In this document: positions 17,072-22,968 of the stretch, piece after piece
How the letters are laid out: every line of letters begins with the position of its first letter
Position numbering within the stretch: the first letter of the stretch is position 1
From: a virus
Virus record (IMG/VR): IMGVR_UViG_3300045256_000813
Coordinates: 1 to 36,586 of that record
Reading direction: 5' to 3' (one strand)
Length of the DNA stretch: 36,586 nt
Notes under the pieces: model-generated
Database searches by the model: none
Seen by the model: only the letters and a program-made list of their open reading frames with translations
Told to the model about the DNA's origin: nothing
Made by a program: the position numbers and the translations under genes

Positions 17072-17533
17072 ATGGCAGATGTAAAACTTAGCATAAGTGA
17101 CAAGCAGTACCTGGCTAAAATCCTTTTTACGAAGGAAAAGCTAGACCAAAAAATTATTGCAAAAAAGGTAGGCGTAAGCGAGCCTACTATCAGCAAATGG
17201 GTGAATGAATTTAATTGGAAAAGCTTGCGTAACCGCTTACTGGTTGGCAAAGAAGAAATATTAAATGGCTTGTATGAAGAAATGCAAGAAATGCAGGAAT
17301 TTATTAAAGCCAAAAAAACTGGAGAACGGTTTAGTGATAGCAAAATGGCCGATGCTAAATTAAAAATTACTGCATCAATCAGAAATTTAGAAACAGACCT
17401 TGCCATTGCGGATTTAGTTGAAAGTGGTATAAGATTTATAAAGTTTTTACAGCAAGCAGGTACGATTGAAGATGTAGTTAAATTTTCTGATTACTGGAAC
17501 GGATTTCTACAACAAAGCATGAAGAGCTTATGA
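17072..17533 (+). CDS. terminase small subunit (Mu gp27-like) with HTH
   Basis: This 153-residue protein has an N-terminal helix-turn-helix (IIAKKVGVSEPTISKWVNEF, about residues 29-48), then a helical middle and a C-terminal ADLVESGIRFIKFLQQAG region. This is the layout of small terminase subunits, which bind pac/cos-like DNA and recruit the large subunit. It overlaps terL by 4 bases (ATGA). It is the first gene of the plus-strand head operon, preceded by the 17053-17071 hairpin. Confidence 0.75.
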   Translation: MADVKLSISDKQYLAKILFTKEKLDQKIIAKKVGVSEPTISKWVNEFNWKSLRNRLLVGKEEILNGLYEEMQEMQEFIKAKKTGERFSDSKMADAKLKITASIRNLETDLAIADLVESGIRFIKFLQQAGTIEDVVKFSDYWNGFLQQSMKSL

Positions 17534-19098
17534 GTAAGGTAAAATTAGTATTGGCTAACAAAAGCAATAAGCAAGCTATGGACGAATGGGAAGATTTCCT
17601 TTTATCCATTAGCAACAGCACTACTATTGACCTAAGCGAAACCCCTGAAGAAAAAGCAAAGCGTATCAAACGCCTTGAAAAAAAAGGCAATGAAGAAGAA
17701 TGGATTGCATATTATTTTCCAAAATTTTGTTTTGCAAAACCAGCGAAATTTCAAATAGAAAGTTCAAAAAAAGTTTTCTATACAGCAAGGCTTTATCAAC
17801 GCAGAGCCTGGGCAAGAGGCTTAAGCAAAAGCACTCGTAGAATGATGGAGTTGTTTTATAAAAAGTTTGCATTAAAAAAACGTATCAATGCCCTTTTAAT
17901 AAGCAAAAACGAAGCCAATGCCATAAGATTACTTGCCCCTTATCGTGCCAATTTTGAAGCCAACCAACGCCTAATAAACGATTACGGAAAACAGGTTGGC
18001 AGCAAGTGGGCTGAGGAAGAATTTGTGACCCGTGACAAAACTTCTTTTCGTGCAGTAGGCATGGGGCAAAACCCTCGTGGTGCAAGGTTGGATGAAATGC
18101 GTATTACCGATTTAATCTTTGACGATGCTGATGATGATGAAGTAAGCCGTAACCCTGAAAGGCTTAACCAAAACTGGGAGTGGGTTGAAAAATCAGCACT
18201 ACCAACAGTTGATATTAGTGCAGATTATTTAATCGCTTTTGATAACAACATAATTGCCGAAGATAGCTTGGCTGTAAGAGCAGCAGCTTATGCAAATGAT
18301 GTTGAAACCATTAATATTCGTGATGAGTTTGGCCATTCTGTTTGGCCTGAAAAAAATAGCGAAGCAGATATTGATGACATGGAAAGCAAAATGAGCTACG
18401 AAAGCTTTCAGGGCGAATATTTCAATAATCCAATTGTACAGGGCAAAACATTCAAGGAAATTACTTACACAAAATGCCCACCATTAAAAGATTTGCCTTT
18501 TGCAATTGTTTATGCCGACCCAAGCCCAAGCAATAGAGATAAACCTACTGCAAAAAGTAAGGCACAAAATAGTTGTAAAGCTGTGGCTGTATTGGGCTAC
18601 GTTAATAATACTTTTTATTTATACAAGTGTTGGGTAGATAATACTACCAACAACAACTTTATAGACTGGCTGTATGCCGCTAAGAACTATGTAGGCAATG
18701 CAACCCAGCTTTACACTTATATTGAAAACAACACCCTGCAAAATCCTTTTTACGAGCAGGTTTTAATGCCTTTAATTTTTAGCAAGGGCAAAGAATATGG
18801 CGATACATTAATGGTAAGCCCAGACGATACACCCAAACCCGAAAAATGGTTTAGAATTGAAGGTACTCTTGAGCCATTAGTAAGGCTTTCGCTGCTTCAA
18901 TTTAACGAAGCAGAAATAGAAAACCCACACATGAAAAGAATGGAAGCACAATTTAAAGGTGCAAGCCCCAACAGTAAATTGTTAGATGGGCCAGATGCTG
19001 TGCAAGGCGGTGTAAAGATTATTCAAAATAAACTAGCTGTGGCCGCTGCTGGTGGCATACAAATTATTCGCAGGCCAATAAACCGAAAAAGATATTAA
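17530..19098 (+). CDS. terminase large subunit (Mu gp28-like)
   Basis: This 522-residue protein shows the packaging ATPase motifs: an R...ARGLSKST Walker A variant at residues 95-102 and a Walker B-type LIFDDAD at residues 195-201 with the catalytic acid following. The C-terminal RuvC-like nuclease starts at IVYADPSPS near residue 328, where the Asp would bind metal. The enzyme translocates phage DNA into the prohead and cuts it; in Mu-like phages headful cutting begins near the left end. Length is typical. No truncation is seen. Confidence 0.9.
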   Translation: MSKVKLVLANKSNKQAMDEWEDFLLSISNSTTIDLSETPEEKAKRIKRLEKKGNEEEWIAYYFPKFCFAKPAKFQIESSKKVFYTARLYQRRAWARGLSKSTRRMMELFYKKFALKKRINALLISKNEANAIRLLAPYRANFEANQRLINDYGKQVGSKWAEEEFVTRDKTSFRAVGMGQNPRGARLDEMRITDLIFDDADDDEVSRNPERLNQNWEWVEKSALPTVDISADYLIAFDNNIIAEDSLAVRAAAYANDVETINIRDEFGHSVWPEKNSEADIDDMESKMSYESFQGEYFNNPIVQGKTFKEITYTKCPPLKDLPFAIVYADPSPSNRDKPTAKSKAQNSCKAVAVLGYVNNTFYLYKCWVDNTTNNNFIDWLYAAKNYVGNATQLYTYIENNTLQNPFYEQVLMPLIFSKGKEYGDTLMVSPDDTPKPEKWFRIEGTLEPLVRLSLLQFNEAEIENPHMKRMEAQFKGASPNSKLLDGPDAVQGGVKIIQNKLAVAAAGGIQIIRRPINRKRY

Positions 19099-19100
19099 CG

Positions 19101-19535
19101 ATGCCTTTCTTAACAAAAGCAGATTTAACACCACCGTTATACCAAGAAATAATTGATGCCATTACTCGTGGTGATGATACTATAGTTGCAACTGCTATAA
19201 AAAATGGCATTGCAGAAATGACTATTTATTTGAATAGACACGATACATTGGCCATGTTTGGCTCAAATAGCGTTGAGCCTACCTATACAGACGATTATTT
19301 AAAATCTTTAGCAAAAGACATTGTGGCTTGGCAATTACTTAAAATGGGTAACCCAAGCATTAACCTTGAATTGTACCGCACCGCCTACAGTGATGCAATC
19401 AAAGTATTCAAGCAGGTAATGAAAGGTGAGGTTGACCCTAAATGGCCATTGAAACAAAATGACCCCGAAAACCTTTTTGATGTATCAGGCCACATTGCCT
19501 CTTTTTCTAACACTAAACGCAGAAACCACTATTAA
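19101..19535 (+). CDS. head completion protein gp36-like (DUF1320)
   Basis: This 144-residue protein resembles Mu gp36/DUF1320. It opens with FLTKADLTPPLYQEIIDAITR, and residues 65-85 contain TDDYLKSLAKDIVAWQLLK, then RTAYSDAIKVFKQVMKGEV. The family is related to head-tail connector adaptor proteins of the gp6/gp15 fold. In Mu this gene lies later, after the capsid gene; here it follows the terminase, so gene order differs. It is separated from terL and portal by only two bases each. Confidence 0.75.
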   Translation: MPFLTKADLTPPLYQEIIDAITRGDDTIVATAIKNGIAEMTIYLNRHDTLAMFGSNSVEPTYTDDYLKSLAKDIVAWQLLKMGNPSINLELYRTAYSDAIKVFKQVMKGEVDPKWPLKQNDPENLFDVSGHIASFSNTKRRNHY

Positions 19536-19537
19536 TC

Positions 19538-20875
19538 ATGGCAGAAAATTCAATGATAAAAAAAGAAAAAGCACCAGATAATGTTGAATTAATTGTGCAA
19601 GAAATACGCATGATTAGTGTGGATAGAACCATGAAGGATATTAAAGACTTCATGAATGCATTAAAAAGTGCCGAAAGTATTTATTATCCAAATAGAACAA
19701 GGCTTTACGATTTATACGAGCATGTAAAGCTAGATGGCCATTTATCTGGCATCATTGGTAAACGCATAGATAGCGTATTGAACAAATCAATGCGTTATGT
19801 AAAAGATGGCAAGCAGGTAGATGGCATGGAAGCATTGTTAAACACAGGTGCTTTTCGTGAAATGAAAAGAACCATTTTGCAAACCATTTTTCATGGCGTC
19901 AGTGGCATGGAGTTTATACCAGGTGCGGAGCTGGAATTTGAAGAAATTCCACGCAAACACATAAAGCCCGAAATTGGTGTAATTGCTATTGAGCAAAACA
20001 GCTACGAAGGCAAGCCTTATAAAGACATTAGCAATGTTTGGGTAATTGGCAAAAAAAGAGATTATGGCCTATTGCTGCAATGCAGTGTATATGCTCTTTA
20101 CAAAAAAAATGGCTTTGGCGATTATGCTCAATATTTAGAAATTTTCGGCCAGCCAATACGTGTTTTTAAGTACGATGCCAACGACATTAAAACCAAAACA
20201 CAATTAGCTGAAACAGCCAACCAAGCTGGCAGCAGCTTGGCATTGGTAATACCTAAACAGGCCGAATTTGAAATAATGGATGGTAAAGCCAGCAATGCCA
20301 ATGGCGATTTACAAAGGCAGTTTATTGATGCCTGTAATCAAGAAATGGATATTGCTGTATTGGCCAATACCGAAACTACCAGCAATAGCAACGGTGGCAG
20401 CAATGCCAAAGCTAAGGAGCATGGCAAGCAGCAAAATGAAGTTATAAAAAGTGATATGGCTTATCTGCTTAGCCACATGAACACGCCAAAATGCTTGGCC
20501 ATATTAAAATCTTATGGCTGGCCAGTAGTGGAAGGTGGCATGTTTGAATTTGAAAAAGAAATTGATTTGGCTTCTTTATCACAAAAAGCCATTATTGACA
20601 CTACTGTTGTAAATGCTGTTGGCCTACCTGTAGCTGATGATTACTGGTACACAACTTATGGAATTGAAAAGCCTGAAAATTATGAACAGCTAAAGGCAGA
20701 AAAAAAAGTTGTTAAAGAAGCCATACAGCAGCAGCCACGTGCTGGCAAGGATGAACCACCAAAGCCAAACAAACCAGCCAACAAGCCTGATAAGAATAAG
20801 CCTGATAACCTCTCCAGTTGGGATTGGATAAAAGCAAGGCTTGCTGATTTTTTCGACCTAGCCCACGAAGATTAA
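19538..20875 (+). CDS. portal protein (Mu gp29-like, DUF935)
   Basis: This 445-residue protein matches the DUF935 portal family: DLYEHVKLDGHLSGIIGKRI (about residues 62-82), then FREMKRTILQTIFHGVSGME, EIPRKHIKPEIG, and KQAEFEIMDGKA. Portals form the dodecameric DNA entry ring. The end is proline/lysine-rich and then helical (WDWIKARLADFFDLA). The last codons contain T_TTT_TTC (20848-20854), a canonical slippery heptamer in the portal reading frame, after which the -1 frame runs into the minor head gene. A fraction of portal could therefore carry that protein as a fusion (inference). Confidence 0.88.
   Translation: MAENSMIKKEKAPDNVELIVQEIRMISVDRTMKDIKDFMNALKSAESIYYPNRTRLYDLYEHVKLDGHLSGIIGKRIDSVLNKSMRYVKDGKQVDGMEALLNTGAFREMKRTILQTIFHGVSGMEFIPGAELEFEEIPRKHIKPEIGVIAIEQNSYEGKPYKDISNVWVIGKKRDYGLLLQCSVYALYKKNGFGDYAQYLEIFGQPIRVFKYDANDIKTKTQLAETANQAGSSLALVIPKQAEFEIMDGKASNANGDLQRQFIDACNQEMDIAVLANTETTSNSNGGSNAKAKEHGKQQNEVIKSDMAYLLSHMNTPKCLAILKSYGWPVVEGGMFEFEKEIDLASLSQKAIIDTTVVNAVGLPVADDYWYTTYGIEKPENYEQLKAEKKVVKEAIQQQPRAGKDEPPKPNKPANKPDKNKPDNLSSWDWIKARLADFFDLAHED
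20848..20854 (+). promoter_or_regulatory. slippery heptamer T_TTT_TTC at the portal-minor head junction
   Basis: The portal codons GAT TTT TTC place T_TTT_TTC in the X_XXY_YYZ register for -1 slippage. The -1 frame has a TGA at 20845-20847 just before the site and no stop from there to 22266. The unshifted frame stops at 20873-20875, so the two frames overlap only at this site. Confidence 0.55.
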
Positions 20876-22266
20876 ATAATTATCTAAGTGGGCTGCCTGG
20901 GCTTAAACATGATGAGATTGTTTTACAATTAAATGCACTGCATGATGCACATGGATGCTGTCACCCTGAGCCTGTCGAAGGGTTAGACAGCAACCATGTG
21001 CATCTGCCTAACCTTGCAGACACCCTTTTAGGGGATGCGGGTGATGCTTTTGCCCAGATGCTTGCAAACATGGTGGAAGATGTATGGAGAGAAAAAGGCA
21101 TACCCAATGGCACTATTAATAAGCAGGTAACCAACGAATTTGCAAAACGTCTGTTTAAAGGTGTAGAAAAAGGCTATGGCAAAACCCTCGCTTCACTTGA
21201 TTACAATACACCTGATGAAATAATGCTAAGGGCATTGCAGCAAAATGTGTGGCATTTTTCAGCAGCAAAAAACTACACACAATTAAAAGCGTTAAGCCAA
21301 GCATTGGTAGATGCTGATGGCAAACTTAGAAGCTACAAGGATTTTAAAACAGAAGCCTTTAAAATCAATGACCAACACACCAACCAGTGGTTAAAAGCAG
21401 AATATGAATTAGCTGTTACCAGTGGTAGAGCCATAAGCTTATACATGGAGTTTGGCGATAATGATTTATTGGAGTTTGATGCTGTATTGGATGGACGTAC
21501 AACAGACTTATGCAAGAGCTTGAATGGCACTGTGCTGCCCAAGAACCACCCTTTTTGGGCAAAGTATTGGATACCTAACCACTATGGAGAACGGAGCACC
21601 ATCAAGTCTGCAAGGGGCAAAAAACAAACACCTGCACACCAAATACCAACTGCTGATATACCAAAGATGTTTGAGACAAATTTGGCTCTTAATGGTATGG
21701 TTTTTCCGCCAACGCATCCTTATTATAAGGATATGCCAAAAGAGGTTATGAGTTTTGGCGAAACCTCTTTTACCAAGATGGAGCACAGAAGGTTTAAAGA
21801 TGGCAATGTTTACAAAAATGGTTTAACCAATAACCCTGCAAAAAAGAATGACATAAGGCACTTTGATGAAGTGCTATTGAAAGAAAAAACAGCCGATGCT
21901 CTAGCACATCATTTCAAAACTGATGTGTACCTGAACCCTGAATTTTCAAACCCTCAAACAGATATGCGTTACAGCAGCTTCTTTGCTGGTGCAAAACCAT
22001 TTAAACAGCCAGATTTCTTTTTCAACAACCAGCAATGGGAAATGGAAAGCTATGATGGCAGGTTTAAATACAATAAGGTTTCAAAAATGCTAAGAAACGG
22101 TGCAAGCCAGTCGGAAAATATTATCATCAAGCTGAAACATAGGGTAGATATTGCCAACATCAAAAGCAGGGCCCTTGCTTCAATATTAAAAAGTACAAAG
22201 CGTTTGAAACAGGTGAAGAGCTTAATAATTGTAGATGTAGATAATGTGGTTCATGTATTAAAATAA
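20848..22266 (+). CDS. minor head protein (Mu gp30/F, SPP1 gp7-like) with C-terminal nuclease-like domain
   Basis: The open frame runs from 20848 to 22266, but no ATG is available before the homology; the first usual start is GTG at 20998, inside a hairpin arm. Coding-like sequence (LSGLPGLKHDEIVLQLNAL) precedes that GTG, so the true start may be a -1 frameshift from portal. The F-type domain lies at DNDLLEFDAVLDGRTTDLCKSLN (21458-21526) and a similar LNG.V.P..HP.. motif repeats at 21691. The last 120 residues (AHHFKTDVYL, then QWEMESYDGRFKYNKVSKM and ASQSENIIIKL) resemble CdiA/colicin-type nuclease tails found on phage minor head proteins. Confidence 0.75.
   Translation, partial: FFRPSPRRLNNYLSGLPGLKHDEIVLQLNALHDAHGCCHPEPVEGLDSNHVHLPNLADTLLGDAGDAFAQMLANMVEDVWREKGIPNGTINKQVTNEFAKRLFKGVEKGYGKTLASLDYNTPDEIMLRALQQNVWHFSAAKNYTQLKALSQALVDADGKLRSYKDFKTEAFKINDQHTNQWLKAEYELAVTSGRAISLYMEFGDNDLLEFDAVLDGRTTDLCKSLNGTVLPKNHPFWAKYWIPNHYGERSTIKSARGKKQTPAHQIPTADIPKMFETNLALNGMVFPPTHPYYKDMPKEVMSFGETSFTKMEHRRFKDGNVYKNGLTNNPAKKNDIRHFDEVLLKEKTADALAHHFKTDVYLNPEFSNPQTDMRYSSFFAGAKPFKQPDFFFNNQQWEMESYDGRFKYNKVSKMLRNGASQSENIIIKLKHRVDIANIKSRALASILKSTKRLKQVKSLIIVDVDNVVHVLK
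20944..21004 (+). repeat. 61-bp imperfect hairpin carrying a REP-like repeat
   Basis: GATGCACATGG (20944-20954) pairs with CCATGTGCATC (20994-21004), and TGCTGTC (20956-20962) pairs with GACAGCA (20986-20992). CCC/GGG pairing brackets a core containing CTGAGCCTGTCGAAG, a sequence widespread as an intergenic repeat in bacteria and translated here as HPEPVEG. It lies inside the minor head reading frame and covers the GTG at 20998. A second copy of the core lies at 22945-22968. Confidence 0.75.
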
Positions 22267-22330: not shown

Positions 22331-22942
22331 ATGGAAGATTACAACATAAAATCATTGGAACAGCTTACAGAAGCTTTTAAAGCTATCGCTGCAAAGCTGC
22401 CAGGCATAGCTGGTGATGAGGTTGTAAACTTCACTTTGGAGAACTTTAAACGCCAAGGTTTTTTAGGTGCAAGCTTCCAGCCTTGGAGGCCAAGAAAGAA
22501 CCCCACCAAGTGGGGAAAAACACCACCAAGAAACAACAGAGCCATCTTGGTAGATACTGCCAAAATGCGTAGGGCTACCCGTGTTAGTGAAGCCACATGG
22601 AATTTGGTTAAGGTTACCAATAATGATGTAAAAGCGAAGGTTCACAATGAGGGCTTCCGTGGCCTTGTTCACCAAGTGGTTGATAGCTATGAAAGAAAGC
22701 AAACATTGGCAGGCAGCTTTGGTGTAGGTGGCATTAAGGCCATTACAGGTAGCCACATGAGCATAAAAAGCAGGAAAGACTTGAAACCAAAGAAAGTGCA
22801 AACAGAAGTATTTGTAACAGGCCATAATCGTAAGATTAAACAAAACATACCAGCAAGGCCATTCCTTGCCAACAGCCCTTATTTGGAAAATATGATTAGC
22901 AGAAAATTGGCTGCTGAAATTATGAAAGCATTTAAACAGTAA
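22331..22942 (+). CDS. virion morphogenesis protein (Mu gpG/HK97 gp10-like)
   Basis: This 203-residue protein matches the phage virion morphogenesis family: an N-terminal helix (EQLTEAFKAIAAKLPG), FKRQGFLGASFQPWRPRK, RAILVDTAKMRRATRV, and a C-terminal IPARPFLANSPYLENMI. The ARPF(L) end is characteristic. The middle is basic, with KSRKDLKPKKVQTEVFV. In Mu, gpG is needed for head-tail joining or tail completion. It follows the minor head gene after a 64-base spacer. Confidence 0.78.
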   Translation: MEDYNIKSLEQLTEAFKAIAAKLPGIAGDEVVNFTLENFKRQGFLGASFQPWRPRKNPTKWGKTPPRNNRAILVDTAKMRRATRVSEATWNLVKVTNNDVKAKVHNEGFRGLVHQVVDSYERKQTLAGSFGVGGIKAITGSHMSIKSRKDLKPKKVQTEVFVTGHNRKIKQNIPARPFLANSPYLENMISRKLAAEIMKAFKQ

Positions 22943-22944
22943 CC

Positions 22945-22968
22945 TGTCACACTGAGCCTGTCGAAGCG
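22945..22968 (+). repeat. second copy of the REP-like repeat
   Basis: A 24-base sequence containing CTGAGCCTGTCGAAG differs from the 20959-20982 copy at two positions. It lies between the gpG-like stop and the next start at 22987, and it lacks the outer pairing arms of the first copy. Confidence 0.75.

Follow-up and report, generated by a model that had tools for sequence, protein, structure and literature searches.

Programmed −1 ribosomal frameshifts in structural operons of phages have been described for the tail assembly chaperones (lambda G/GT; SPP1 17.5/17.5*), the heptamer reported for SPP1 gene 17.5 being UUUUUUC (PMC6316719). In Lactobacillus phage A2 and in Listeria phages a head protein is lengthened by a −1 shift, the minority form of which enters the head (cited in PMC5009743 and PMC4493119). 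In 2017 Jamet et al. described MuF polymorphic toxins of temperate phages, which are encoded directly past the portal gene and carry C-terminal toxin domains; MuF appears there as a gene of its own downstream of the portal gene, and a frameshift is not mentioned (PMC5576092). SPP1 gp7 binds the portal and is present in 1–2 copies per capsid (PMC5576092; see also PMC6316719). The subject here is the junction between the portal gene and the gene for MuF, a minor head protein, in a Mu-like (pro)phage represented by IMG/VR virus record IMGVR_UViG_3300045256_000813, positions 1 to 36,586 (the whole stretch of 36,586 nucleotides (nt) is called the window). From comparison with related sequences we propose, with a probability of about 93%, that this junction carries a signal for programmed −1 ribosomal frameshifting.

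The portal gene of the window ends with GCT GAT TTT TTC GAC CTA GCC CAC GAA GAT TAA, in which T_TTT_TTC forms a heptamer of the type X_XXY_YYZ in phase with the portal codons (for coordinates see Table 1). The −1 frame, closed by a TGA just before the heptamer, is free of stops from there until TAA 22264-22266. A shift at the heptamer would join 439 amino acids (aa) of the portal to 470 aa of MuF, giving a protein of about 909 aa. Counted from the portal stop, the MuF frame has its first GTG (20998) after 41 codons and its first ATG after about 61. The original prediction, made from the letters of the window, had named the slippery heptamer, the closed and then open −1 frame and the lack of an early ATG with a GTG as first usual start; on re-reading of the sequence all of these were found to be right.

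Relatives were gathered from phage records, IMG/VR and GTDB species genomes by the similarity of their portal and terminase genes, without regard to the slip site; queries with the portal, the terminase and sub-alignments were productive, and single-protein pattern searches with MuF retrieved no relatives among viral or genome contigs. Of 129 loci surveyed, 104 had MuF and a complete portal gene, the remainder being mostly cut by contig ends or without portal. The frame of MuF relative to the portal was −1 in 83 of the 104, the same in 17 (one open reading frame, ORF) and +1 in 4. The frame break for which the original prediction had proposed to compare homologues thus recurs in 83 loci. Clustering of the overlapping −1 junctions at 90% identity, which reduces but does not remove their non-independence, left 57 clusters; 55 of these have an in-phase X_XXY_YYZ and 51 have T_TTT_TTY (47 TTTTTTC, 4 TTTTTTT; the T6 junctions). 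T_TTT_TTY was found in phase 51 times in the 1,367 overlap codons of the 57 junctions, versus 4 times in 24,349 codons of portal bodies, and thus greatly exceeds what chance would give.

The codon preceding the two phenylalanine codons stands for any of D, S, G, N, R and A, yet it ends in T in 51/51 T6 junctions; the product of the codon-usage expectations for this is ~1e-21. Any residue followed by two phenylalanines (xFF) is written as a heptamer in 53/54 cases at junctions versus 6/38 elsewhere in portals (Fisher p = 1e-17). Selection acts on the nucleotides and not on the peptide alone.

Downstream of the heptamer the window can form a stem-loop with a conserved core, in which GCCCAC (20861-20866) pairs with GTGGGC (20888-20893), beginning 6 nt past the heptamer. 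Such a GCC(C)...GGGC stem is found 5–6 nt past the heptamer in 49/51 T6 junctions, and at exactly 6 nt in 47 of these 49. Pairs 1–4 are invariant in all 49 (G-C, C-G, C-G, C-G), pair 5 is formed in 49/49 by different bases (C-G 35, A-U 5, U-A 4, G-C 5), and pair 6 is formed in 47/49, with G-C, C-G and A-U each occurring. The loop had been picked for the best stem in this count, which is why a separate recount was made on 12 gap-free sequences of one loop size, in which 98.6% of the cells were paired. For these 12 the covariation score was 0.258 versus 0.049 after shuffling (0/500 as high) and ~0 for slid partners. Of random positions in portals, 0.8% have a stem that matches the median quality. 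The portal stop wanders from 10 to 52 nt from the start of the heptamer; the distance between stem and heptamer is fixed. This conserved stem-loop is the likely stimulator of the frameshift.

The first 25 codons of the MuF frame past the portal stop have a ratio of nonsynonymous to synonymous polymorphism (pN/pS) of 0.16 in 11 pairs of relatives, several of which are near-copy Bacteroides prophages; judged by this ratio, the codons right past the portal stop are under selection at the protein level. A Cys/His-type motif is present just past the portal stop in 25/51 T6 junctions, in 20 of these 25 upstream of the first ATG, and similar motifs recur in the lineages with fused genes. The junction thus combines the features expected of a programmed −1 frameshift: an in-phase heptamer, a covarying stem at 6 nt and a −1 ORF under coding selection. 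The fusion of the portal to the minor head protein proposed in the original prediction is supported by heptamer, spacer, covarying stem and −1 MuF across dozens of relatives.

Other lineages have a different heptamer at the same junction. A_AAT_TTT was found in L079-L081 and L199 (loci are given by their survey numbers), the latter with a GCCCC/GGGGC stem, and G_GGA_AAG in L194. That one canonical heptamer stands in for another at the identical junction is hard to explain other than by recoding. A_AAA_AAA/G is present in L007 and in a distinct clade from the species-genome sample (L200, L204-L208, L217; the A6 clade), which has runs of A9-A10 just upstream of the portal stop, few or no MuF starts nearby and no consistent stem at its junctions. 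It was set apart because of the missing stem and because an A9-A10 run allows transcript slippage; its sequences possibly reflect an independent origin of the portal-MuF shift, by slippage of either the ribosome or the transcript. Among 396 Bacteroidota species genomes sampled, 44 had PF06074. The 28 portal loci with MuF in this sample comprised 6 with T6C, 7 with A6, 1 with A_AAT_TTT, 1 with G_GGA_AAG and 1 fused; in the rest portal and MuF are mostly separate genes with their own starts. In Mu, DMS3, RC1, MuM16-2 and mushu, which served as controls, portal and MuF are encoded by separate genes and the junction has neither a T6 nor an A6 heptamer. A Salinibacter phage without MuF beside its portal was not used as control.

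The different heptamers bear on two other explanations. Were the second frame made by slippage of RNA polymerase on a homopolymer, the T9 runs in L074 and L077 and the A9-A10 runs of the A6 clade would be long enough to make this plausible there; most sites, however, have six T's only, A_AAT_TTT and G_GGA_AAG occur elsewhere, and the codon phase and the 6-nt spacing of the stem, which transcript slippage does not need, are both conserved. Transcript slippage was therefore rejected as the general mechanism and is very improbable. An error of assembly or sequencing in the T run, which would mean that the true gene is a single in-frame fusion as known from some relatives, had been the main alternative in the original prediction. 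It is hardly conceivable, since the identical −1 break, spacer and covarying stem are found in 51 non-redundant junctions from isolates and metagenomes and since the break sits at non-homopolymer heptamers in other lineages; the conservation across relatives excludes it.

Several observations weigh against a programmed frameshift as the rule throughout the group. In L063 and L068 the stem is kept at the stop codon and the slip site is degenerate (CTTTTTC). Seven fused lineages (L009, L054, L061, L071, L072, L086, L087) lack the T6 heptamer, from which it follows that the two-product arrangement can be lost and is not universal. The Flavobacterium phages L010 and L011 (Winoviridae), two of the four +1 loci, manage without the signal, MuF having its own ATG just past the portal stop. 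Some relatives have a start codon shortly past the portal stop, and there separate initiation of MuF could contribute. The other two +1 loci (L034, L083) speak for the signal, their frames being locally broken with T6C plus stem still present.

The question thus arises whether MuF is generally a separate gene, translated from a non-ATG start or by re-initiation past the portal stop, with the stem acting as a translational coupler. In favor are the ATG or GTG near the portal stop in some relatives, the truly separate genes of L010 and L011, and the public records, those of L007 (Peternella), L008 (TCUEAP3) and L014 listing MuF as a separate gene with a downstream start codon. But MuF lies in the −1 frame in 57 clusters with the heptamer in fixed phase, the median distance to the nearest downstream ATG is 38 codons, the spacing of stem and heptamer stays the same where the portal stop moves, and several lineages encode portal and MuF as a single ORF. 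Separate initiation was rejected as the general mechanism, and we consider it unlikely in the extreme, if a shade less so than transcript slippage. In L007 and L008 the homology of MuF reaches upstream of the annotated starts, and therefore the database annotations shorten these N-termini.

The portal ring consists of twelve subunits. We infer that most ribosomes would terminate at the portal stop, yielding the 445-aa protein, and that a smaller share, held up by the stem-loop while TTT is in the P site and TTC in the A site, would slip back by one base and continue with ...LADFF|RPSPRRLNNY... through MuF and the CdiA_C-like domain. The predicted trans-frame junction peptide is LADFFRPSPR for the window phage, SQLADFFRPGPLTVQK for the L005 type and FFRESPGER or ESPGER for the Bacteroides phage L014. 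Because the whole portal body would be common to both products, a few fused subunits could be built into a portal ring and so bring MuF and its toxin-like domain into the head, in a ratio that would be fixed by the efficiency of the shift; delivery of the toxin could follow from this. A modest shift rate would give about 1–2 MuF copies per ring, as compared with SPP1 gp7.

MuF of the window, whose gene lies directly downstream of that of the portal, matches phrog_220 ('minor head protein and DNA pilot'; E 3e-10). In the profile search the protein itself did not match PF04233 (MuF / SPP1 gp7), which is matched over cut-off by the homologues in L005, L037, L047, L110 and L120; the name MuF is based on the PHROG match and on these homologues. 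A search of PDB sequences with the MuF ORF gave no match, and an AlphaFold model of the ORF was weak (mean predicted local distance difference test score 66) and without a meaningful Foldseek match. The C-termini are exchangeable: CdiA_C in the window, L037 and L047, Gln_amidase in L014 and a PBECR2 nuclease in L110, L120 and L123, which by their domain matches is in line with MuF polymorphic toxins (PMC5576092). In L005 and L112 MuF ends soon past the core, and since these short proteins are preceded by the identical frameshift signal, the frameshift is not tied to the toxin. An immunity gene was not evident in the short gap downstream of MuF, to which the search was confined.

Among the relatives with portal and MuF in one ORF, 8 distinct loci keep an in-phase T6 and a GC-rich stem (L013, L056, L070, L073, L074, L077, L126, L130), with compensatory differences in the stem (GCTCC/GGAGC in L074, GCCCGG/CCGGGC in L130). 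The xFF is written as heptamer in 8/8 of them versus 6/38 elsewhere (p = 1e-5, relatedness not corrected). As to the findings in homologues that according to the original prediction would have spoken against a frameshift, the T6 lineage does not as a rule have a clear MuF ATG, and intact fusions do exist; because many of them keep slip site and stem, they rather speak for the signal. In the fused loci with T6 the fusion is the zero-frame product, and translation shifted to −1 would reach a stop after 17–32 codons. As an early stop by itself is expected in a random frame, the argument for a reversed form rests on the kept heptamer and stem. By this argument a −1 shift in the fused ORF would end early and yield the portal alone, as in dnaX (tau/gamma), where the long product comes from the zero frame and the shorter one from the −1 shift. 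The likeness to dnaX is that the fused lineages retain slip site and stem, with the long product in the zero frame and a predicted short form; the difference is that here a viral head gene is concerned and that related lineages run the same signal in opposite directions.

When placed on a tree of 99 portal sequences, the states shift, fused and separate require at least 12 changes, fused rows being interleaved with shift rows; the tree is a quick one with support from the Shimodaira-Hasegawa-like approximate likelihood ratio test only. This distribution suggests that the portal-MuF arrangement has flipped more than once. We lean, with some reserve, toward a two-way recoding switch that would set the number of portal subunits with MuF as internal, often toxin-bearing cargo; in most lineages the shift would add this cargo, and in the fused lineages, which retained the RNA signal, its role would be reversed to removal of the cargo.

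In 6 loci MuF was not detected (L050, L107, L114, L115, L116, L122). L050 is cut by the contig end with the full signal visible, and the portal of L107 is truncated. The portals of L114, L115, L116 and L122, about 50% identical to that of the window, end before the slip-site tail and no MuF is detectable; signal and MuF seem, from these sequences, to have been lost together. The frame of the portal body is interrupted in L067 (near 8030) and L083 (near 6999), the slip signal being intact; these may be sequencing errors or decaying prophages.

A palindromic repeat of 61 nt, which surrounds the GTG in the window, adds roughly 13 residues (PEPVEG...) to MuF beside the CC-H motif. The original prediction had mentioned this hairpin as the place of the GTG and had not named the conserved stem-loop. 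The hairpin was rejected as stimulator because it lies about 90 nt downstream and is not present in the relatives examined; it is a separate in-frame insertion. The exact core was not found in any other locus of the survey; among the relatives examined the repeat was seen in the window phage only. A search of Rfam gave just a sub-threshold microRNA match within the palindrome. A second, partial copy is located at 22944-22968, just past a gene ending at 22942.

Table 1. Features at and around the portal-MuF junction of the window
Feature	Position	Strand	Remarks
Terminase-type ORF	17530-19098		
gp36-like gene	19101-19535		PF07030
Portal gene, Mu-type	19538-20875	+	445 aa unshifted; PF06074 Portal_Mu, E 2e-59, 202 bits, over cut-off
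TGA closing the −1 frame just before the slip site	20845-20847	+	
Slippery heptamer T_TTT_TTC, portal phase	20848-20854	+	codons GCT GAT TTT TTC GAC at 20843-20857; kept in relatives
−1 frame ORF, MuF (minor head) protein	20848-22266	+	without start codon near the portal; phrog_220, phrog_19194
Spacer GACCTA from heptamer to conserved stem core	20855-20860	+	6 nt
Putative stimulatory stem-loop UAGCCCAC..GUGGGCUG	20859-20895	+	−16.5 kcal/mol, z −5.9; covariation in relatives
Palindromic repeat, core CCCTGAGCCTGTCGAAGGG	20944-21004	+	in frame inside MuF; holds the GTG
Cys/His motif codons (CC-H), MuF frame	20956-20964	+	upstream of first GTG and first ATG
MuF core, approximate	21046-21747	+	homology to head morphogenesis / Phage_Mu_F proteins
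C-terminal toxin-type domain, PF18451 CdiA_C	22003-22242	+	E 5.7e-7, above curated cut-off

The junction shares with the tail assembly chaperones a −1 shift in a structural operon; it differs in the genes concerned (portal and MuF), in the conserved stem at fixed spacing and in the outcome, which appears reversed in some lineages. In phage A2 the major head protein is lengthened, whereas here the portal is predicted to be joined to a separate conserved family, MuF. A description of a portal-MuF frameshift was not found in the open-access PMC full text, most subscription papers and all preprints lying outside the search; in the portion of a large frameshifting review that was covered the word 'portal' was not found, and the main text of the hankyphage paper mentions neither frameshift nor portal. 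According to the methods of PMC12135933, its hankyphage capsid proteins were identified by reference to the jmh43 genome. Priority of the finding is therefore not certain.

If the junction is indeed a programmed frameshift signal, tailed phages would have a further conserved frameshift site in their structural genes, besides those of tail chaperones and capsid proteins. The group is widespread in Bacteroidota, with hankyphage-like gut prophages of Bacteroides and, for the reversed form, prophages of Porphyromonas gingivalis. The frameshift would explain the low copy number of MuF in heads and the loading of phage-borne toxin domains, and it would mean that many MuF proteins are currently annotated with a wrong, shortened N-terminus. 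Should the two-way switch also be true, there would be selection for mixed portal rings, with MuF on only some of the twelve subunits.
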